DNA from: Kribbibacterium absianum | Lineage (GTDB): Bacteria > Actinomycetota > Coriobacteriia > Coriobacteriales > Atopobiaceae | Length of the DNA: 64,000 bases | Assembly: GCF_030067705.1 (NCBI RefSeq) | Contig: NZ_JASJEX010000001.1 | Span: 1 to 64,000 of the forward strand | Reading direction: 5' to 3' | In this document: positions 1 to 48,583 of the stretch, piece by piece | Numbering within the stretch: the first letter of the stretch is position 1 | How the letters are laid out: each line of letters opens with the position of its first letter | Program-made: the position numbers and the translations under genes | The notes under the pieces: generated by a model | The model's database searches: none | What the model was told of the DNA's origin: nothing | Seen by the model: only the letters and a program-made list of their open reading frames with translations

Positions 1-103
1 GGCGGGGGTGGCACACCCGGTCCCATGCCGAACCCGGAAGTTAAGGCCCCGAGCGCCGATGGTACTGCAGCGTCAGGCTGTGGGAGAGCAGGGCGCCGCC
101 GGC
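1..103 (+). rRNA. rrf: 5S ribosomal RNA, 3' part
   Basis: The first bases carry the hallmark conserved 5S stretch (CCATGCCGAACCCGGAAGTTAAG region at about 23-45), followed by the GATGGTACTGC segment and the 3' strand of the closing helix. About 15 bases of the 5' end lie outside the window. The 3' end is placed by comparison with other 5S genes and may be off by a few bases. A strong terminator follows. Confidence 0.95.
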
Positions 104-119
104 CCGCGAGGGACGCTTC

Positions 120-160
120 GAAGAGGCCCCGCCGATTCGTCGGCGGGGCCTCTTCGTGTT
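120..160 (+). terminator. Intrinsic terminator of the rRNA operon
   Basis: A 16-bp perfect stem (120-135 with 140-155) is closed by a TTCG tetraloop and followed by a short T-rich run. Its position just after 5S marks it as the end of the rRNA transcript. Confidence 0.9.
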
Positions 161-291
161 TGACGACGTGTGCGCTGCCGTCCTCTCTGTTTGGGTTCGG
201 GCGGCGCCTCACCGCCGGCATGAAGCGATGCCATGTCGTGGCTCCTGCTGGCGAGTCGCCCTATTCTTTGCAAGCTTGTGAGGCGCGCAGC

Positions 292-1746
292 ATGGCTCAG
301 ACTCCATCTCGGGATTCGTCGCCGACCACCAAGGTCGGTCTCGTCGGTCTTGTCGGCATTGTTGTGTCTGCCATGGTGGGTGGTGGCATCTACACGCTGC
401 CCGCATCGGTGGCCACCCATGCATCAGCCGGCGCGCTACTCGTCGCGTGGCTGGTGACGGGCGTCGGTATGTGGTTCGTGGTGGACACCTTCCGTGAGCT
501 TGCGGTCATTCGACCGGACCTCACCAACGGCATCTTCTCGTATGCGGAGACCGGCTTCGGGAAGCTTGTCGGCTTTCTCGTCGCGTTCGGGTATTGGATG
601 ACGTCCTGTTGTGCCATGGCATCGTACGGGATCTTGGTCATGGCCACGCTGTCCGCGGTCTTCCCGGCATTGGGGGCGGGCAACACGTTGCCGGCGCTCG
701 TTGGGGCGTCTTGCCTGGTCTGGGGCGTGTTCGCCATCGCACGGCGTGGGGTGGAGCAAGCGGCGATCATCAATGTGGTCGGCACCGTAGCGAAGTTCGT
801 GCCGGTGGCGGTGTTCATCGTGGTGGTGCTGGCGTGCTTTTCGCCGGCAGTGATGCAGGGAGACTTCTACGGTTCCGCCGTGGACGGGTCCCGTGCGGCG
901 GGCACGTTCGACAACCTGCTGCCTCAGGTTTCGAGCGTCATGATGGTCACCCTCTGGGTGTTCATCGGGATCGAGGGCGCGGTGGTCGTGTCCGGGGAGG
1001 CGAGGAGCCAGAAGCTCGTGGCGCGAGCGACGGTGGTGGGGTTCGCGATCGCGCTCGCGTTCTATGTGCTCGTGAGCGTGCTTCCCTTTGGCCTCATGTC
1101 CCAGAGCGAGCTGGCGGATCTCTCCTCTCCGTCCACTGCGGCGATCTTACAGTCGCTCGTGGGGCCGTGGGGGCGCGTCCTGATCAGCGTCGGCATTGTG
1201 GTGTCCATCCTGAGCTCCTGGCTCGTGTGGATGTGCCTGCAGGGTCAGATGCCCACCAGTGCGACTGAGGCCGGCATCTTCCCGACGTTCTTCAAGAGTC
1301 GCAACCGGTTCGGGGCACCGGAGACGTCCCTTCTCTGGAGCGCGATTGGGACGCAGCTGTTTCTGGTGCTGGCGTTCGCGCTCGGGAGCTCCGCCTGGGG
1401 AATCCTTGTCTCCATCACGAGCACGATGGCCATCCCCGCTTACTTCTTTTGCAGCCTGTTTCTGCTCAAGTCTGCCGTGACGGGCCACTGGGCCGGCCCG
1501 CGGGCGTCCCGCGAGCGTGCCCGCCTTGTGGGCATTGTCGGTTCGTTGTTCGGACTTTGGCTCGTGTACAGCTCGGGGCTGCAGAACCTGCTGACGGCGT
1601 CGGTGGTGTTCGCGCTCGGGTTGCCGCTCTTCTTCGTCGGCCGCGCTCAGGCTGGTCATAGGGGGCCCCTGCCGCGGCGCGAGCAGGTCATCGTTGTTGT
1701 GGTCGCCTGCTGCGCCCTGGCTGCCGTGGTGATGCTCGCCGTCTGA
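292..1746 (+). CDS. ArcD-like basic amino-acid/ornithine antiporter (APC superfamily)
   Basis: A 484-residue, highly hydrophobic protein with about 12-13 membrane segments. The first segment carries the APC signature GLVGIVVSAMVGGGIYTLP (residues about 19-38), followed by the ELAVIRPDLTNGIFSYAETGFG loop typical of the arginine/ornithine antiporter branch (basic amino acid/polyamine antiporters). Family members exchange arginine for ornithine, lysine for cadaverine, or similar pairs across the cytoplasmic membrane; the substrate cannot be fixed from sequence. The start at 292 follows a GTGAGG ribosome site; an upstream in-frame extension would run back into the 5S gene and is unlikely. No arcA/B/C genes are adjacent, so a role in the arginine deiminase pathway is not shown here. 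The next gene is a C45-type amidohydrolase on the same strand. Confidence 0.85.
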   Translation: MAQTPSRDSSPTTKVGLVGLVGIVVSAMVGGGIYTLPASVATHASAGALLVAWLVTGVGMWFVVDTFRELAVIRPDLTNGIFSYAETGFGKLVGFLVAFGYWMTSCCAMASYGILVMATLSAVFPALGAGNTLPALVGASCLVWGVFAIARRGVEQAAIINVVGTVAKFVPVAVFIVVVLACFSPAVMQGDFYGSAVDGSRAAGTFDNLLPQVSSVMMVTLWVFIGIEGAVVVSGEARSQKLVARATVVGFAIALAFYVLVSVLPFGLMSQSELADLSSPSTAAILQSLVGPWGRVLISVGIVVSILSSWLVWMCLQGQMPTSATEAGIFPTFFKSRNRFGAPETSLLWSAIGTQLFLVLAFALGSSAWGILVSITSTMAIPAYFFCSLFLLKSAVTGHWAGPRASRERARLVGIVGSLFGLWLVYSSGLQNLLTASVVFALGLPLFFVGRAQAGHRGPLPRREQVIVVVVACCALAAVVMLAV

Positions 1747-39162: not shown

Positions 39163-40617
39163 TCACTGTCCGTTCAGCATCAGGAAGACCAGCACGAGGA
39201 TGATGACGGCCGCGGCCACCACCAGCACGAACACGACGCGGCTCGACAGAGTCTTCTTCCGTACGTCCTTCTCGGCCTGCGCAAGGGCATCCACCTGCTG
39301 CGACTGAAGCTCGGCCGCCGCGCGGTTGTCGGCCACGGAGTTCTCGAGGTCGCGGATCTTCTCGGGGTGGGCGTGCACCTCCTCGGCCTCGTCCAGGGCT
39401 GTCTGTGCGTCGTCGGCCGCCTGCTGGTGCTGCGCCGCCTCGTTCTTGAGCCGGCGGCATTCCTTCTGGGCCTCGATGACCTTGTCCTCCACGGCGTCCT
39501 CGTGCTTCTGGAACGCCGCCGCTTCCTCGTCGTGCTCGCGTTTGGCCTGCTTCCAGGCCTGCTTGGCGGAGTCCGCCTCGCGCTGGGCGTCGTCTCTGGC
39601 GCTCGTGGCGTCGGACACCCGCTCCTTGGCGTCGGCGATGGGGCCCGCCAGCTCGGTGGGCGCCGCGTCCACTTCTTCGCGCGCCTTCGAGAGGCGCCCC
39701 ATCTCGGCCGCGTGGTCACTGCGGAGCCGGGCCACGTCGCCGCTCGATGCGTCGGGGTTCCGCTGCGCCGACGCGAGGTCCTCCTGCAGCTGCGCGATGC
39801 GCCGCTGCGAGGCGTCGATGGCGCGGTTCGCCTGGCTCACGCGGTCGTCCCGCCGCTTGACGAGGTCCTTGAGCGCCGACTCCGCCGAGCGCAGGGCTTT
39901 CTTGGCGTCCGAGAGGCGCTTGTCGGCGTCGCCGGACGCGGACTTGGCCTTGTCCAAGGCCTGCTTGTAGGGACGGAGCGCCTTGGCGTCGTCCTTCTTG
40001 AGGGCCTCGAGCTTCTTTTGGTAGCGACCGGCCTTGTCGTTCTGCGCGTCCGCCTCGTCGAGCAGCTGGTGCATCGTCTGCAGCGCCTTGTCGCGCGCCT
40101 CGGTCTGCGCCGCGACGATCTCGTCGTAACGGTCGAGCAGGCCCCGGCGCTTGGCAAGGTCGGCGGAGTCCGCGTCGATCTGGGCCTGTAGCTGGGCGAG
40201 CTGCTCTTTCGCGTGGGCGTGCTCGCGTTTTGCCTTGCCTACCGCACGGAGCGCCGTGAACCCCTCGCTCGTCTGCTGCGTCAGCGAGGTGCTGGCCTTC
40301 TTGGCGGCGGTGGTGACGGTCTTCATGTGCTTGACCACTGGGCTCGGTGCGGGAGCGGCCTGGGGGGCGTCTTGCCCCATGGGCTCTGCGGGCGCGGGTT
40401 CTTCGTCTGCGTCGGTGGGCTCTTCGTCCTCGTCCTTGGCTTCGGCTTGGACGGTGTCCTCGACCTCGTCCTTCTCGGGCACGTCCTCTTCCACGTCGAG
40501 CTCGGCGTCGTCCTCGGCGGCCTCCTCGGTGGGGGCCTCGATGTGGGCGTCGTCCTCGGGCCCCTCGACCGTGTCGGGCTCCTGAGGCTCCACGTCCTCG
40601 CGCTTGGTGTCGTCCAT
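39163..40617 (-). CDS. Tail-anchored long coiled-coil protein
   Basis: A 484-residue protein of clear layout and unknown function. Residues 1-95 are strongly acidic and Pro-rich; residues about 100-450 are almost unbroken heptad-like helix rich in Ala, Lys, Glu and Gln with no globular domain; residues about 458-482 (RVVFVLVVAAAVIILVLVFLMLN) form a single C-terminal membrane helix with two or three residues beyond it. Such tail-anchored rods can act as cytoplasmic scaffolds or membrane tethers. It separates queA from tgt on the opposite strand and does not look functionally tied to queuosine. Start after AAGGAG. Confidence 0.75.
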   Translation of the reverse strand: MDDTKREDVEPQEPDTVEGPEDDAHIEAPTEEAAEDDAELDVEEDVPEKDEVEDTVQAEAKDEDEEPTDADEEPAPAEPMGQDAPQAAPAPSPVVKHMKTVTTAAKKASTSLTQQTSEGFTALRAVGKAKREHAHAKEQLAQLQAQIDADSADLAKRRGLLDRYDEIVAAQTEARDKALQTMHQLLDEADAQNDKAGRYQKKLEALKKDDAKALRPYKQALDKAKSASGDADKRLSDAKKALRSAESALKDLVKRRDDRVSQANRAIDASQRRIAQLQEDLASAQRNPDASSGDVARLRSDHAAEMGRLSKAREEVDAAPTELAGPIADAKERVSDATSARDDAQREADSAKQAWKQAKREHDEEAAAFQKHEDAVEDKVIEAQKECRRLKNEAAQHQQAADDAQTALDEAEEVHAHPEKIRDLENSVADNRAAAELQSQQVDALAQAEKDVRKKTLSSRVVFVLVVAAAVIILVLVFLMLNGQ

Positions 40618-40707
40618 GGCAGCTCCTTCGGGCCGGGTTGGTTTCTCGTGCCTTGTTCAACACCTTAAGGTACCCATGTCGCTGCTGTCCCCAGAAACGG
40701 CGCCGGC

Positions 40708-40736
40708 GGGACAGACGCGTCCGGCACCTGCGTCCC
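40708..40736 (+). repeat. 29-bp GGGAC/GTCCC palindromic repeat, copy 8
   Basis: GGGACAGACGCGTCCGGCAC-type copy in the divergent spacer between the coiled-coil gene and tgt. Confidence 0.85.
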
Positions 40737-40743
40737 GCGACGG

Positions 40744-40809
40744 GGCGTGGACAAACGGCTCTCTCCGAAGCGTCCAGGCGTGGACAAATGGCTTTGACCG
40801 AAGCGTCCA
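40744..40809 (+). repeat. 33-bp direct tandem repeat, two units
   Basis: Units 40744-40776 and 40777-40809, each running from GGCGTGGACAAA to CCGAAGCGTCCA, with inverted TGGAC/GTCCA ends; they differ at about five bases. The array lies 50 bases before tgt. Confidence 0.85.
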
Positions 40810-40861
40810 CGTGCCGCTGGTAGACTTAGCCGCCGAGAAACCCGCGCGCCCAGGAGGTGCC

Positions 40862-42007
40862 ATGCCCCAAGACCAGCTCTTCTCCTTCGACATCCAGGCC
40901 GAGGACCCCCATTGCGCCGCCCGCGCCGGCGTCTTCCACACCGCGCACGGCGACGTCCCGACGCCCATCTTCATGCCGGTCGGCACCAAGGCCACGGTCA
41001 AGGGCATCACGCCGGACCAGCTCAAGCAGCTCGGTGCGAAGATCATCCTCGCCAACACCTACCACCTCTCCCAGCGCCCGGGGCCCGAGCTCATCGCACA
41101 CATGGGCGGCCTCCACGCCTGGGAGCGCTGGGACGCCCCCATCCTCACTGATTCCGGCGGCTTCCAGGTCTTCTCTCACAACGACTTCGTGAAGCTCTCC
41201 GACGACGGTGTCAGCTTCCGCGTCGTGGACTACGACGGCCGCCACGTCACGTGGACGCCCGAGGAGAACATGCGCATCGCCGAGTTGCTCGGCGCCGACA
41301 TCGTGATGCAGCTCGACGTGTGCCCGGGCTACCCGTGCGACCGCGCGTACCTGGAGCGCGCGGTGCAGCTCTCGAGCGCGTGGGCGGCCCGCTGCTGGCA
41401 GGCCCACACGCGTCCCGACCAGGCGCTCTTTGGCATCGTGCAGGGTGGCATGGACCTGTCCCTGCGCGTCCAGAGCCTCCGCGTGCTCGAGGAGTGCGGC
41501 GACTTCCCCGGCTACGGCATCGGCGGCTACTCGGTGGGGGAGAGCCACGAGACCATGTTTGAGTCCCTCGCGCCGCTGGCCAGCGAGTACATGCCAAAGC
41601 ACAAGCCCCGCTACCTGATGGGCGTCGGCAACCCGGCCACGCTCGTGCGCGCGGTGGGCTGCGGCGTCGACATGTTCGACTGCGTGCTGCCCACCCGCAC
41701 GGCGCGCATGGGGACCGCGTTTTCCAGCGAGGGGCGCATGAACCTCAAGCACGCGCGCTTCATCGACGACCCGCGCCCCATCGACGAGACCTGCGGCTGC
41801 CCGGCGTGCGCCCAGGGTTTCTCGCGCAGCTATCTCAACCATCTCGTGCGGCAAAAGGAGATGCTCGGCTCGATCCTCATCTCCCTGCACAACATCTGGT
41901 ACCTGCTCGACCTCATGCGCCGCGCGCGGAACGCCGTGATCGAGGGCTGCTACCCGGCGTTCGAGCGGGCGTTCCTCGAGAGCGAGGCCGGGCGCCGCGA
42001 CTTCTGA
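40862..42007 (+). CDS. tgt: tRNA-guanine transglycosylase
   Basis: A 381-residue bacterial-type TGT. It swaps guanine 34 of GUN tRNAs for preQ1. Visible are the proton acceptor/base site in TDSGGFQVFS, the GIVQGG segment, the nucleophile region MGVGNP..CGVDMFDCVLPTR, and the zinc site CGCPAC...YLNHLVRQKE. With queA and queH it covers insertion, ribosyl transfer and epoxide reduction of the queuosine pathway; preQ1 synthesis genes are not in the window, so preQ1 may be salvaged. Start after AGGAGG. Confidence 0.96.
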   Translation: MPQDQLFSFDIQAEDPHCAARAGVFHTAHGDVPTPIFMPVGTKATVKGITPDQLKQLGAKIILANTYHLSQRPGPELIAHMGGLHAWERWDAPILTDSGGFQVFSHNDFVKLSDDGVSFRVVDYDGRHVTWTPEENMRIAELLGADIVMQLDVCPGYPCDRAYLERAVQLSSAWAARCWQAHTRPDQALFGIVQGGMDLSLRVQSLRVLEECGDFPGYGIGGYSVGESHETMFESLAPLASEYMPKHKPRYLMGVGNPATLVRAVGCGVDMFDCVLPTRTARMGTAFSSEGRMNLKHARFIDDPRPIDETCGCPACAQGFSRSYLNHLVRQKEMLGSILISLHNIWYLLDLMRRARNAVIEGCYPAFERAFLESEAGRRDF

Positions 42008-42363: not shown

Positions 42364-45300
42364 ATGGCCGGAGTGCTGGAAAGCGACCGCTGGTGCGTGC
42401 TCGCCCCCGATGCGGCGGCCGAGAGGACCCTTCGAGAGGCGCTCGGCCTTGGCTCCCTGGCCGCTCGCGTGCTGGCCGCCCGCTGCGTCACCGACGTGGA
42501 CGCGGCCGAGCGGTTCCTGACTCCGTCGCTCGACCGCGACTGGCACGACCCTCTGGAGATTCCCGGGCTTGCGGACGTCGCGGACCGTGTGGAGCGCGCG
42601 CTCGACGACGGCGAGGCGATCGCGGTCTTCGGCGACTTCGACGTCGACGGCATGACGTCGGCCGCGCTCCTCACGTTGGGGCTGCGCGCGCTCGGCGGCT
42701 CGGTCGAGCCATTCATCCCGCGGCGCTTCGACGAGGGTTATGGGCTCTCGAGCGAGGCCGTCAACCGCGTGGTGGACCAGGCCGCCCCGTCCCTCATCGT
42801 CACCGTCGACAACGGCATCGCGAGCGCGGACGAGGTGGCCCGTGTCCGCGAGCTCGGCATCGACGTCGCCGTCACGGACCACCACGAGCCCGGCGAGTCC
42901 GTGCCCAAGGGCGTGCCCGTCTGCGACCCCAAACTGGACCCGGCGTGCCCCAGCCGCGATCTGGCGGGCGTCGGCGTAGCGCTCAAGCTGCTGCAGGAGC
43001 TGGGGCGCCGCCGCGGCCAGCCCCGGCTCTGGCTCGACTACCTCGACCTCGCGTGCCTCGGCACCGTGAGCGACATGATGGAGCTCACGGCCGAGAACCG
43101 CGCGCTTGTCTCGGCGGGCATCCGGCAGCTGCGCGAAGGGCGCCGGCCCGGGCTCGTGGCGCTGGCGGCCGAGGCCCGGTGCGACCTTTCCACCATCGAG
43201 GCCGACGGGCTGCCCTTCTCGCTGTCCCCGCGCCTCAACGCGGCCGGGCGCATGGGCGACGTGCAGATGGCCTTCGACCTCTTGATGGCCGACGACCGGC
43301 GCGAGGCCCAGGCCCTGGCCGAGAAGCTCGAGGCCGTCAACCAGGAGCGCCGTGCCATCGAGGGCGAGCTCTCCGACAAGGCCCTTGCCGAGGCCGAGCA
43401 CGCCTACCATGGCGAGCCCTGCGTGGTGCTCGGCGGCGAGGGCTGGCACGAGGGCGTCAAGGGCATCGTCGCGAGCCGCGTCGTGAGCCACTTCCATGTG
43501 CCGAGCCTCGTCTTCTCGATTCAGGACGGCGTCGCGCGGGGCTCTGGCCGGTCGGTGGGGTCCGTGGACCTCTACCACGCGGTGGACGGGTGCCGCGACC
43601 TGCTCACGCGCTTCGGCGGCCACGCCGGCGCGGTGGGCGTGACGATGGACGCCGACAAGCTCGACGAGTTCCGCGACCGGCTCACGGCAGAGCTCTCAGC
43701 GCTGCCGGCCGAGCAGTTCCAGAGCCGCGAGGAGGTGGCCTGCGTGGCTCGGCTCGACGAGCTGACCCTCGACGGCGTGGCCGGCCTCGACGCGCTCCGA
43801 CCCTTCGGCCAGGGCAACAAGGTGCCGCTCATGGCCGTGCGGGGCGTGACCATGCGCGGACGCTCGCTTGTGGGCGCCGGCGCCGAGCACCTGCGCTTTT
43901 TTGCGAGCGACGGCGTGTCGAGCGTCGCCTGCATCCAGTTCCGCGCGCCGGACCCCGCCAAGGCGGCTGCCTACGACGGCCTCGTCGACCTCGTCTTCGA
44001 GCCCGTCGTGGAGGTGTGGCAGGGCCGCTCCAAGGTCAAGCTCATGGTGCGCGACGTGATCTTCCGGGAGCCCGAGGCGTCTCCCGGCGCGCCTGGCCTT
44101 GTGGAGGCGCTCTTCGAGCGTGCCCCCCAGATCCTCGTGCGCGACTCCTACGCCGGCGTCGCCGACGAGGACTCGTTCTTCACGAAGGCCGTGGGGGTGA
44201 CGCAGCCGGGTCGGCAGGAGACGGTGGCCTCGCTCGTGCCCGGCCAGGAGCTCCTGCTTCGGCGCGAGCCCGACAACCCTGCGGACCCTCAGGCGATCGC
44301 GCTGTTCACGCAGGACGGCGCCCCCGTGGGCTACCTGCGGCGCCAGATCGCGGCCGCCATTGCCCCCGTCATGGACCGGGGCCAGGCCTACCGCTGCGTG
44401 GTGACGGACGTCACGGGCGGGGTTCCCGACGCGATGGGCACCGAGCGCGCCTGGGGCGCGAACCTCGAGGTCTCAAAGGTGAGCGTGGCCGCGGTGGAGT
44501 CGGTCGCGGCCGCGGCCGCTCGTCCGGACCTCGCCGGCCTCGACGCCGAGGGGCTCACCGACGCCCTGCGCCGGGCCATGATCGGCGACCACGCGCTGCT
44601 GCCGGCCCAGGCCCGCGCCCTGGAGGAGCTGGCCGCCGGCCGCTCGACCCTCTGCGTCATGGCCACCGGCCGAGGCAAGTCGCTCATCTTCCACATCCAT
44701 GCCGCGCGCCGCGCCCTGCTCGACGGCCGGGCGAGCGTCTTCGTGTACCCGCTCCGGGCCCTCGTGAACGACCAGGCCTTCCACCTGGAGGAGGCCCTCG
44801 AGCCCTTCGGCATCAGCGTGCGCCGGCTCACGGGCGAGTCGGGCGCCGAGGAGCGCGCCGAGGTCTACGCCGGGTTGGCGGACGGCTCGGTGGACGTCGT
44901 GCTGACCACCCCCGAGTACCTCGCGATCCATTCCCAGGAGTTCGCGAAGGCCGGTCGCGTGGGGTTCGTCGTCATCGACGAGGCCCATCACGCTGGCGCG
45001 TCCAAGGGCGGCGACCGCGGCGCCTATCAGGAGCTGCCGCGCGTGCTCGACGAGCTGGGCCGCCCGGAGGTGCTCGCGGTCACGGCCACGGCGAGCGACC
45101 CGGTGGCGCAGGAGGTCTGTCGGCTCGGGGGCATCGAGTCGGTGGTCAAGGACGTCTCTGTGCGCGCCAACCTCGCCATCGACGACCGTCGCGACCTTCG
45201 GGACCGCGAGGGCTTTGTGACCGGGGTCGTGGGCACCGGCGAGAAGACCGTGATCTATGTGAACTCGCGCGACCAGTCCGTGGCGCTCGCGCGGATGCTG

Positions 45301-46023
45301 CGCCAACGGCTGCCCCAGCTGGGCCAGAGGATCGCGTTCTACAACGCCGGCCTCACGCGGTCCGAGCGTGTGGAGGTGGAGCGCGCCTTCCGCGACGGCC
45401 GCCTCAGCTGCATCGTGTCCACCTCGGCCTTCGGCGAGGGCGTCAACCTCCCGGACATCCGTCACGTGGTGCTCTACCACCTGCCCTTTGGAGCGGTCGA
45501 GTTCAACCAGATGAGCGGCCGCGCGGGCCGGGACGGGCGTCCGGCGCAGGTGCACCTGCTCTTCGGCTCCGGCGACGCGCGCATCAACGAGCGGATCCTC
45601 GGGTCCCAGGCGCCGGGCCGCGAGGACCTCGTGGCGCTCTATCGGGCCCTCAAGGCCTACCAGGCCCAGGCCGACGCGGCACAGGAGGGGTCCTTCTCGG
45701 TATCGAACCAGGCGCTGGTCGATGCCGCCAGGGTGGCGGACCCGCGCACCAAGCTGGACGAGCACGCCGTGAGCGCCGGCGTCGGCATCTTCCGCGAGCT
45801 GGGCTTCCTCACCACCTCGGGCCGAGGCACCGCCCGCCGCATCGCGCTCAGCCCGTCGCCGGCCAAAATGGACCTCTCGTCCTCGGTGCGCTATCGCGAG
45901 GGGCTGGGAGCCCTCGACGACTTCGGCCAGTTCCGTGACTGGGCCCTGACCGCGGATGCCGCCGAGCTGTTGGCGCGTATCAACCGGCCCATCGCGCCGG
46001 GTTTCGGTGAGACCTGCGAGTGA
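42364..46023 (+). CDS. recJ: RecJ exonuclease - HIRAN - DEAH (RecQ-like) helicase fusion
   Basis: A 1219-residue protein in three parts. Residues 1 to about 570: complete RecJ core with FGDFDVDGMTSAA (about 91), DHH in VAVTDHHEPG (about 171), SPRLNAAGRMGD, and GGHAGAVGVTMD (about 417). Residues about 600-690: a HIRAN domain, seen in GQELLLRREPDNPADPQAI and PVGYLRRQIA. Residues about 735-1150: a superfamily 2 helicase with Walker A ATGRGKS (about 767), box II VIDEAHH (about 869), VTATAS, STSAFGEGVNLPDIRHVV (about 1016) and QMSGRAGRDGR (about 1049), most like RecQ. RecJ degrades 5'-3' single strands opened by RecQ; here both are in one chain with a HIRAN end-binding module. Start after GGGGAGGGG. 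An ordinary RecJ is about 550-750 residues. Confidence 0.92.
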   Translation: MAGVLESDRWCVLAPDAAAERTLREALGLGSLAARVLAARCVTDVDAAERFLTPSLDRDWHDPLEIPGLADVADRVERALDDGEAIAVFGDFDVDGMTSAALLTLGLRALGGSVEPFIPRRFDEGYGLSSEAVNRVVDQAAPSLIVTVDNGIASADEVARVRELGIDVAVTDHHEPGESVPKGVPVCDPKLDPACPSRDLAGVGVALKLLQELGRRRGQPRLWLDYLDLACLGTVSDMMELTAENRALVSAGIRQLREGRRPGLVALAAEARCDLSTIEADGLPFSLSPRLNAAGRMGDVQMAFDLLMADDRREAQALAEKLEAVNQERRAIEGELSDKALAEAEHAYHGEPCVVLGGEGWHEGVKGIVASRVVSHFHVPSLVFSIQDGVARGSGRSVGSVDLYHAVDGCRDLLTRFGGHAGAVGVTMDADKLDEFRDRLTAELSALPAEQFQSREEVACVARLDELTLDGVAGLDALRPFGQGNKVPLMAVRGVTMRGRSLVGAGAEHLRFFASDGVSSVACIQFRAPDPAKAAAYDGLVDLVFEPVVEVWQGRSKVKLMVRDVIFREPEASPGAPGLVEALFERAPQILVRDSYAGVADEDSFFTKAVGVTQPGRQETVASLVPGQELLLRREPDNPADPQAIALFTQDGAPVGYLRRQIAAAIAPVMDRGQAYRCVVTDVTGGVPDAMGTERAWGANLEVSKVSVAAVESVAAAAARPDLAGLDAEGLTDALRRAMIGDHALLPAQARALEELAAGRSTLCVMATGRGKSLIFHIHAARRALLDGRASVFVYPLRALVNDQAFHLEEALEPFGISVRRLTGESGAEERAEVYAGLADGSVDVVLTTPEYLAIHSQEFAKAGRVGFVVIDEAHHAGASKGGDRGAYQELPRVLDELGRPEVLAVTATASDPVAQEVCRLGGIESVVKDVSVRANLAIDDRRDLRDREGFVTGVVGTGEKTVIYVNSRDQSVALARMLRQRLPQLGQRIAFYNAGLTRSERVEVERAFRDGRLSCIVSTSAFGEGVNLPDIRHVVLYHLPFGAVEFNQMSGRAGRDGRPAQVHLLFGSGDARINERILGSQAPGREDLVALYRALKAYQAQADAAQEGSFSVSNQALVDAARVADPRTKLDEHAVSAGVGIFRELGFLTTSGRGTARRIALSPSPAKMDLSSSVRYREGLGALDDFGQFRDWALTADAAELLARINRPIAPGFGETCE

Positions 46024-46201
46024 CCGAGCGCGTGCCAAGGCCCTGTGTCCGCCCTCCGTTCGGTCGAGAAGGGGGCGGCTCCGGTCGCCGGGTGTGCCCG
46101 CACGCAGGCGTTCGGGCCCCTCCGACAAGCCCGTTTGTTGAATGGAAGCTTTCGAAAGCTAGACTTACATGCTGTTCAGCTGGCCGACGAGAGGAGCACC
46201 C

Positions 46202-48583
46202 ATGAGCGACATGCCGAACGAGGCCACTCCCGCTCCGCCCGAACCGCTCGGCCCCGGCCCCGACGTCCCGCGCATCCCCAAGGTGCCGGCCGACAACTAT
46301 CCGCAGCTGCGCGCCGCGTGCCAGCTCTACATGACGCCCGAGCAGCTCCAGCGCGTGGAGGACGCCTACCTCTTCGCGGCGGACTTCCATTCCGAGCAGC
46401 GCCGGCGTTCCGGCGAGCCCTACATCAACCATCCGGTGGAGGTGGCGCTCATCCTGGCCCACGACCTCCGCATGGACGACGACGTGATCTGCTCGGCCCT
46501 CCTCCACGACACCGTCGAGGACACCCCGGCCACCAAGGAGCAGCTCACGAACCTCTTCGGCGAGTCCGTCGCGGAGCTCGTGGACGGCGTCACCAAGCTC
46601 ACCAACATCGACGTGGGCACGATGGACGAGAAGCAGGCCCTCAACCTGCGCAAGATGTTCCTGGCCATGAACAAGGACATCCGCGTCGTGATCATCAAGC
46701 TCGCGGACCGCCTCCACAACATGCGGACGCTCGCCGCGCTGAAGCCGGACCGGAGGCTCTTCAAGGCCCGCGAGACGATGGACGTCTACGCGCCGCTCGC
46801 CGACCGTCTCGGCATGAGCTCCATCAAGTGGGAGCTCGAGGACCTCGCGTTCTTCTACCTGGAGCCCGAGCAGTACCAGCGCATCGCCCGGATGGTGCAG
46901 GAGTCACGCGAGCAGCGCCTCGCCGCCACCGACGAGGCCATCAAGGTGCTCGACGACGAGCTCAAGAAGGAGGGGCTCACCGACTACCAGATCACGGGCC
47001 GCGCGAAGCACCTCTGGTCCATCTACCAGAAGATGCGCCGCAAGGACAAGGACTTCTCGGACATCTACGACCTCATCGCCCTGCGCGTGATCACGAAGAC
47101 GGTGGGCGACTGCTACTCCGTGCTCGGGGCCGTCCACTCGCTCTGGCACCCGCTGCCCGGGCGTTTCAAGGACTACATCGCGACGCCCAAGCCCAACCTG
47201 TACCAGTCGCTCCACACGACGGTCGTGGGCCCCGAGGCGCGGCCCATCGAGATCCAGGTTCGCACCGTCGAGATGCACGAGCAGGCCGAGTACGGCATCG
47301 CCGCCCACTGGCTCTACAAGTCGAGCGGCAACTCGATGGGCGTGATGGCCAACGACGACAAGGGCGTGGACTCGCGCATCTCCTACATCCGCCGCTCCAT
47401 CGACTGGGCCACCGAGGGCGACATCACGGACGCCTCGAAGTTCCTGCAGGAGCTCCGCGTTGACCTCTACGACGACGAGATCTTCCTCTTCACCCCCAAG
47501 GGCGAGGTGCTGAGCCTCCGGCGCGACTCGACGCCGCTCGACTTCGCGTACGCCGTCCACACCGAGGTGGGCAACCACTGCGTGGGCGCCAAGGTCAACG
47601 GCGCGGTGGTGCCGCTCACCTACAAGCTCCAGATGGGCGACCGCGTGGAGATCATGACCAACAAGAACTCCAAGCCGTCGGCCGACTGGGTCAACATCGT
47701 GCGGACCCCTTCCGCGCGCGCCAAGATCCGCAAGTACTTCTCGAGCGCCAACAAGGACACCGACGCCGAGTACGGGCGCTCGATGCTGGCCGCCGAGCTG
47801 CGCAAGAAGGGCTTCGGCATCTCCACGCGCCGGTCGGTGAAGGCCATCGCGCAGGTGTGCGAGACGCTCAACTTCCGGACGCCGGAGGACCTCTTCGCCG
47901 CCATCGGCTCCAACAAGCTGAGCCCCAAGACCGTCGCGAACAAGGTGCAGGCCATCCTCGACGAGGGGTCGCCCCAGCAGCTGGCGGCCGAGGCCAAGGC
48001 CAAGGCGCAGGCCGAGGAGCTCAGACAGTCCTTCTCAGAGGACCGCCCCATCATGCCGCAGCACGTGGCCAAAGGCCGGGCGCAGGACCGCTCCAAGCGC
48101 CCGAGCTGCGGCGTCGTGGTCAAGGGCGACCCGGACCTCCTCGCGCACCTGGCCCATTGCTGCAACCCGGTGGCGGGCGACGACATCTGCGGCTTCATCA
48201 CGCGCGGCCGGGGCGTCTCGGTGCACCGCGCCACCTGCCCCAACGTGAAGGGCCTGATGGAGCACCCGGAGCGCATGATCGAGGTGGCCTGGGACACCTC
48301 GGGCGCCACGCAGTTCCAGGTGGAGATCGTCGTGGAGGCCACGGACCGCATCGGCCTCCTCAAGGACGTGACCATCGCCCTCGGCGACGCCGGGGGTAAC
48401 ATCCTCTCCGCTGCCACCCAGGTGTCGAGCGACGGCGTCGCGAAGCTGCGGTTCCTGATCGCGATCTCCGACGCGAGCCTCCTCGACCCCCTGCTGGCGG
48501 CCGTGAGCCGGGTGCCGAGCGTGTACGACGCACGGCGCATCATGCCCGGCGAGGGGGCCAACCAAATGAAGAGGAGGGTCTAG
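46202..48583 (+). CDS. rel: Bifunctional (p)ppGpp synthetase/hydrolase
   Basis: A 793-residue RelA/SpoT homologue. The HD hydrolase site is intact (INHPVEVA and LLHDTVEDT, about 75-108), as are the synthetase segments (DIYDLIALRVI, RFKDYIATPKPNLYQSLHTTV, EIQVRT), followed by TGS (IFLFTPKGEVLSLRRDSTPLDFAY) and a C-terminal ACT domain. It makes and degrades the stringent-response alarmone. The next gene starts on the base after its stop. Start after GAGAGGAG. Confidence 0.96.
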   Translation: MSDMPNEATPAPPEPLGPGPDVPRIPKVPADNYPQLRAACQLYMTPEQLQRVEDAYLFAADFHSEQRRRSGEPYINHPVEVALILAHDLRMDDDVICSALLHDTVEDTPATKEQLTNLFGESVAELVDGVTKLTNIDVGTMDEKQALNLRKMFLAMNKDIRVVIIKLADRLHNMRTLAALKPDRRLFKARETMDVYAPLADRLGMSSIKWELEDLAFFYLEPEQYQRIARMVQESREQRLAATDEAIKVLDDELKKEGLTDYQITGRAKHLWSIYQKMRRKDKDFSDIYDLIALRVITKTVGDCYSVLGAVHSLWHPLPGRFKDYIATPKPNLYQSLHTTVVGPEARPIEIQVRTVEMHEQAEYGIAAHWLYKSSGNSMGVMANDDKGVDSRISYIRRSIDWATEGDITDASKFLQELRVDLYDDEIFLFTPKGEVLSLRRDSTPLDFAYAVHTEVGNHCVGAKVNGAVVPLTYKLQMGDRVEIMTNKNSKPSADWVNIVRTPSARAKIRKYFSSANKDTDAEYGRSMLAAELRKKGFGISTRRSVKAIAQVCETLNFRTPEDLFAAIGSNKLSPKTVANKVQAILDEGSPQQLAAEAKAKAQAEELRQSFSEDRPIMPQHVAKGRAQDRSKRPSCGVVVKGDPDLLAHLAHCCNPVAGDDICGFITRGRGVSVHRATCPNVKGLMEHPERMIEVAWDTSGATQFQVEIVVEATDRIGLLKDVTIALGDAGGNILSAATQVSSDGVAKLRFLIAISDASLLDPLLAAVSRVPSVYDARRIMPGEGANQMKRRV

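Follow-up and report, generated by a model that had tools for sequence, protein, structure and literature searches.

Physical joining of a motor to a nuclease for the processing of DNA ends is familiar from AddAB/RecBCD and Dna2/Bad, in which a PD-(D/E)XK nuclease works with SF1 motors. RecQ-family enzymes cooperate with RecJ in resection. Both RecJ and RecQ bind SSB, no direct contact between them is known, and their working together is regarded as an open question (PMC11442139). Ordinary RecJ (TIGR00644; D. radiodurans 5f55, S. aureus 8y30) has a DHH, DHHA1 and OB core, followed by a ‘domain IV’ (ssDNA-exonuc_C, PF10141) or by nothing at all. The C-terminal domain of D. radiodurans RecJ binds SSB-Ct (PMC4846377) as well as HerA (PMC4663267); for the Deinococcus-Thermus domain an HHpred search was reported to yield no homologue (PMC4663267), and that of S. 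aureus has been described as non-conserved (PMC11442139). The HIRAN domain (PF08797) of HLTF, there joined to a SNF2 motor and a RING domain, binds the ends of single strands, including 3' ends, as well as fork junctions (PMC4666394 and work cited therein).

The window analysed here, 64,000 nucleotides of Kribbibacterium absianum, contains a single uninterrupted frame in which RecJ, HIRAN and helicase modules follow one another. We consider it probable that this protein, the organism’s only RecJ, is a single-chain nuclease-helicase, an old fusion that survives intact here and whose helicase has decayed in relatives. Its features and flanking genes are as follows.

40604..42007, + strand: tgt, upstream neighbour of the recJ locus (Pfam TGT 1.2e-139; longest frame, the true start probably lying further in)
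42364..46023, + strand: fused recJ-HIRAN-helicase gene, single frame, 1219 aa
42619..43065, + strand: RecJ DHH domain, residues 86-234 (Pfam PF01368 1e-22)
43420..43695, + strand: RecJ DHHA1 domain with GGH, residues 353-444 (Pfam PF02272 9.9e-11)
43747..44055, + strand: RecJ OB domain (RecJ_OB), residues 462-564 (Pfam PF17768 8e-19)
44176..44388, + strand: HIRAN domain, residues 605-675 (Pfam PF08797 1.1e-12)
44602..45105, + strand: helicase RecA-like domain 1 (DEAD) with Walker A ATGRGKS and DEAH, residues 747-914 (Pfam PF00270 3e-23)
45235..45537, + strand: helicase RecA-like domain 2 (Helicase_C) with motif VI SGRAGRDGR, residues 958-1058 (Pfam PF00271 7.7e-24)
45616..45999, + strand: winged helix and conserved C-terminal tail, residues ~1085-1212 (model pLDDT 93.5; hhalign to RecJ domain IV)
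46169..48583, + strand: relA/spoT, downstream neighbour (Pfam RelA_SpoT, HD_4, TGS, ACT_4)

In one protein, an entire RecJ is followed by HIRAN, by an entire SF2 helicase most similar to RecQ, and by a winged helix and a conserved tail; all six Pfam domains (DHH, DHHA1, RecJ_OB, HIRAN, DEAD, Helicase_C) lie above their cut-offs. A first-pass annotation had read an unbroken frame, a RecJ core with DHH and GGH motifs and a HIRAN domain, and was right on each count: the translation from 42364 to 46023 is free of stops, DHH, DHHA1 and RecJ_OB are all matched with GGH present, and the Pfam search that it proposed places HIRAN at 48.1 bits against a cut-off of 24.7. Its list of domains holds as far as it went, with the winged helix and tail overlooked; the ~130 residues after the helicase are predicted to fold into helices and a unit resembling a winged helix, with a long helical tail (pLDDT 93.5), where ‘winged helix’ is our reading of the predicted secondary structure and of a Foldseek match to RecQ1 D2-Zn-WH. 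The full-length model has a pTM of 0.68, leaving the position of the helicase relative to the nuclease uncertain.

The fused protein belongs to RecJ by equivalog cut-off, by its DHH/DHHA1/OB domains and by its catalytic motifs. It passes TIGR00644 with 448.7 bits (cut-off 396.9), and the model aligns with 5f55/6lrd at a VIA Z of 54; the metal-binding residues (D91, D93, D95, D149, D172, H173, H174, D237) show no variation across all 92 fused proteins, and neither does the GGH motif. Core, catalytic residues and a locus beside relA are thus all common to the fused and ordinary proteins; the difference lies downstream of the OB domain, where HIRAN and a complete helicase stand in place of domain IV or nothing.

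The helicase is RecQ-like, in its SF2 motifs and in the RecQ-type folds of its RecA domains, yet fails the tests for RecQ proper, so that the ‘full RecQ-like helicase’ of the first-pass annotation stands for the two RecA domains (both DEAH and GRAGR being found) and falls for RecQ itself. The RecQ family (TIGR00614; 4tmu, WRN, RECQL) supplies the nearest solved folds for both RecA domains: RecQ/WRN are the top helicase folds for the whole module (VIA Z 27–32), and the RecA2 half finds its best structural matches there too (Foldseek/VIA, Z 21). In contrast, the protein misses the family cut-offs of TIGR00614 (164.7 versus 219.8 bits) and TIGR01389 (161.7 versus 640.2 bits). The aromatic-rich loop that follows DEAH in RecQ (CISQWGxDFR) was not found, the fused protein reading DEAHHAGASKGGDRGAY where the organism’s own RecQ has DEAHCISQWGMDFRPDY. 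Zinc-binding, RQC and HRDC domains gave no Pfam match in the fused protein, with the same genome’s RecQ showing all three as a positive control; the absence of RQC and HRDC had been correctly anticipated, and RecQ_Zn_bind can now be added to it. Unlike RecQ, finally, this helicase is joined to a nuclease. Motifs I, Ia, Ib, II, III, V and VI are kept in ~90 of the 92 fused proteins (Walker A and DEAH of RecA domain 1 in 89–91) which, together with the conserved catalytic residues of RecJ, places both halves under selection. One family member (L036) was called dead by a regular-expression screen; its Walker A reads GTSRGKS, and we set that call aside, as the enzyme is probably active. Separately, the helicase part of the window (44602–45537) scores up to 202 bits with PADLOC models of DpdF, from the 7-deazaguanine DNA modification system, a similarity that suggests shared ancestry with this defence helicase.

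The HIRAN module belongs to the same domain family as that of HLTF and keeps the N and D of the NPxD motif (N638 in 87 of 92 fused proteins, D641 in 90), here joined to a nuclease rather than to a SNF2 motor and RING. It is found in most families of Coriobacteriia, though missing in many members of the organism’s own order (e.g. L045, L047, L050, L056 and L060), in which RecJ runs directly into an intact helicase. HIRAN is therefore dispensable, being absent from many members of the class that retain an active-type helicase; from its loss in active forms we infer that it tunes loading and is not essential. In a close relative (L010, genome G195) the helicase is intact and HIRAN degenerate, with the conserved N and D gone, which by its sequence appears to be HIRAN decay caught under way.

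The gene occupies the ordinary recJ locus beside relA. The order in the window is tgt-recJ-relA-MBL hydrolase; recJ-apt-relA is seen in Listeria, Orenia and a further record (L154), and recJ-relA in Vescimonas (gene names in Orenia and L154, and the MBL hydrolase, were read from translations), such that recJ-(apt)-relA is common to fused and short forms. Within the assembly of the organism itself (2.18 Mb, 7 contigs), where the gene is matched at C1:42364 with 100% identity, the fused protein is the single RecJ. The search for separate recJ and recQ genes that the first-pass annotation had called for returned no second RecJ and one canonical RecQ (L002, contig 3), with DEAD, Helicase_C, zinc, RQC and HRDC domains; the fusion is thus no substitute for a missing RecQ in Kribbibacterium absianum. 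An AddA-like UvrD protein (L231; contig 2, ~519.4–522.9 kb) lies under the AddA cut-off and carries a C-terminal PD-(D/E)XK-like nuclease motif, GSIDLL..DYKTG, read by eye. The suggestion of a self-contained resection machine accordingly survives as an architecture of RecJ plus RecQ-like helicase with its motifs kept, and not as the sole route of resection, which the canonical RecQ and the AddA-like enzyme rule out. Other carriers often lack a canonical RecQ: among Bacillota in which the fusion is intact, the RecQ cut-off is exceeded only in G510, G657, G588, G633, G469, G628 and G563.

The fusion is not peculiar to this organism. The survey of Coriobacteriia proposed by the first-pass annotation gave a class-wide result, with a match in 194 of 199 sampled genomes, including all 172 of 172 of good quality, nearly all among the matches listed being one long frame. 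The complete fusion is also present in two more actinobacterial lineages, sisters to the class (f27, f80), and other long actinobacterial RecJs, mostly 740–940 aa, are without it. Outside the phylum it is present in Orenia metallireducens (Halanaerobiales) and in Bacillota MAGs, 36–43% identical to the window protein over full length; in two overlapping samples of Bacillota it occurs, HIRAN included, in 13 of 149 and 18 of 199 genomes (~9%). The full fusion was not found in plasmid or phage records, and in the open-access literature we found no prior report of a RecJ-RecQ or RecJ-HIRAN fusion, or of a helicase origin for the RecJ C-terminal domain. Within one genus of the class, genome G007 (L233) has cleanly lost HIRAN and helicase, its 571-residue RecJ frame ending after OB with relA directly next. 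RecJ of Bacteroidota (L085) likewise stops after the OB domain. In Parabacteroides (L085 2995–6645) recJ and recQ are adjacent, ~10 bp apart, and both features are likewise annotated in a Bacteroides record; RecJ and RecQ are encoded side by side here, reminiscent of the fused protein, but as two separate genes with RecQ unfused.

Comparison of the C-terminal half with domain IV of ordinary RecJ indicates, at the level of sequence profiles, that PF10141 and the C-terminal half of the fused helicase are homologous, and points to domain IV of the S. aureus/Listeria type being a decayed helicase: it corresponds to RecA2, winged helix and tail and, unlike the fused protein, has neither RecA1 nor any ATPase motif. 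A domain IV set including Listeria, Paenibacillus and other Bacillota aligns with the fused C-half at an hhalign E of 2.8e-42 over 261 columns, covering winged helix and tail; the control against RecQ reaches 1.5e-9 on the RecA2 part only, and controls against RecA1 or HIRAN are negative (E 0.03–0.04). The RecJ C-terminal domains of other Actinobacteriota match RecA2, winged helix and tail (probability 98.7%, P 1.7e-16), and gave no match to the RecA1 half. When the PDB is searched with the domain IV profile, S. aureus RecJ 610–754 comes first (3.9e-9), followed by helicase RecA2 domains (DBP5 4e-7, RecQ 1.7e-5). With the profile of the helicase C-half, helicases dominate and RecJ is absent among the best 60 PDB matches; with the C-half model in Foldseek and VIA, helicases again dominate, with RecJ not seen among the matches listed. 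Structural alignment places 626 residues of S. aureus RecJ (12..731) onto the fused model (1..1167) against ~520 for D. radiodurans, at an rmsd of 18 that reflects differently placed pieces and makes this comparison supporting only. For D. radiodurans RecJ there is no sequence alignment to the fused protein past residue 536, and the VIA alignment ends at 534, at the OB domain.

Living RecJs, assigned to stages by module profiles (HIRAN, RecA domains, tail, motifs), span the distance between the two forms: intact proteins (L170–L188); proteins with HIRAN, both RecA domains and tail, without Walker A, DExH or motif VI (L191, L192); proteins with both RecA domains and tail, without HIRAN or those motifs (L193, L195, L197); and proteins of 840–1020 aa with a RecA2 remnant and/or tail (L190, L201–L205, L207, L217, L220, L223), beyond which lie the 783-aa RecJ of Listeria and that of Vescimonas (693 aa; winged helix and tail region only, read by eye). 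The dead helicase of L195 is still recognised by Pfam (Helicase_C 2.3e-13, DEAD 1e-5). Its genome, G622, also has a separate intact HIRAN-helicase gene (648 aa; L194 243–2189, 45% identical), a pair that probably records a fission or replacement event, as if the motor had moved out. In most Bacillota and other Actinobacteriota, decay would have removed the helicase motifs, then HIRAN, then the first RecA domain, and would have left the second RecA domain and winged helix as the domain IV of ordinary RecJ.

On the RecJ-core tree, intact, dead and short forms are interleaved, with mixed pairs such as L180 (Orenia, intact) with L192 (dead; SH-aLRT 98) and L177 (intact) with L220 (short; 99), and a single clade for all intact forms is rejected (AU p 6.6e-5); as the tree is unrooted and its deep forks are weak, some of this scatter could stem from horizontal replacement of recJ. 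No branching order was read from the helicase tree, in which the dead and outgroup sequences sit on very long branches. An ATPase, once lost, is unlikely to be regained, which makes repeated decay the most economical account; the reading we favour is an ancestral nuclease-helicase in one chain that decayed more than once, the direction from intact to decayed being deduced from these comparisons. The intact fusion might instead be a later acquisition, one lineage of RecJ having captured a RecQ-like helicase that then spread horizontally, with short RecJs bearing domain IV descended from that spread. The patchy 9% in Bacillota and the weak deep branches would suit such a capture, which we nonetheless judge unlikely: carriers and non-carriers share the same recJ-relA locus, and domain IV remnants in many helicase-less RecJs require helicase decay in any case. 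The pairwise distances of the RecJ and helicase parts are, moreover, congruent (r 0.88, Mantel p 0.001, n=34 intact fusions), which argues that the two halves have travelled together.

RecQ-type motors move 3'-5' along DNA, and RecJ degrades it in the 5'-3' direction; from a break or gap both would therefore proceed the same way, the motor on the 3' strand and the nuclease on the 5' strand. For the single-chain nuclease-helicase we envisage that HIRAN and/or the winged helix engages a DNA end or junction; that the RecQ-like motor, moving 3'-5' on one strand, opens the duplex; that the released 5' strand is degraded 5'-3' by the RecJ core attached in cis; and that 3' single-stranded DNA is left for RecFOR/RecA at gaps and breaks. 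Unwinding, its polarity, its coupling to 5'-3' digestion and the part played by HIRAN are deduced from the architecture and homologies of the protein. The helicase module could alternatively serve mainly to position RecJ, by remodelling forks or as an ATP-dependent platform that binds DNA or SSB, without acting as a resection motor; loss of the ATPase would then cost relatives little. Such a role would fit the repeated loss of ATPase motifs with retention of RecA2 and winged helix, the disappearance of HIRAN from many active forms and the binding of SSB and HerA by the D. radiodurans C-terminal domain (PMC4846377, PMC4663267); a mere platform would, however, have no need of the seven helicase motifs that intact lineages keep nearly invariant, and we regard this as improbable. 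That the protein is an anti-phage nuclease-helicase, DpdF-like or similar, is highly improbable despite the PADLOC score, the match being confined to the helicase domains of a class-wide protein that is the genome’s only RecJ and sits in a housekeeping tgt-recJ-relA locus. A sequencing or assembly artefact joining two genes can be dismissed, since dozens of independently assembled genomes, drawn from several classes, show the same single frame.

Looking further back, it is possible, and we offer it tentatively, that helicase and nuclease were already united, as a self-contained enzyme, in the RecJ ancestral to bacteria at large and not to Bacillota and Actinobacteriota alone. The RecJ-RecQ partnership of E. 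coli would then be derived, with the functions split over two proteins, and domain IV of Bacillota and of Deinococcus-Thermus would be a fossil of the older enzyme; the RecJ of Bacteroidota ends after OB, which leaves room for an older or a younger fusion. Like AddAB/RecBCD and Dna2/Bad, the fused protein joins motor and nuclease physically, as would suit end processing, though with modules unrelated to theirs. With RecJ and RecQ-like functions in one chain, their coupling becomes directly testable with one purified protein and point mutants. A domain reported to lack homologues (PMC4663267) or to be non-conserved (PMC11442139) would, at least for the S. aureus/Listeria type, be explained as a decayed helicase, and the living intermediates would provide a rare worked example of a motor becoming a binding domain.
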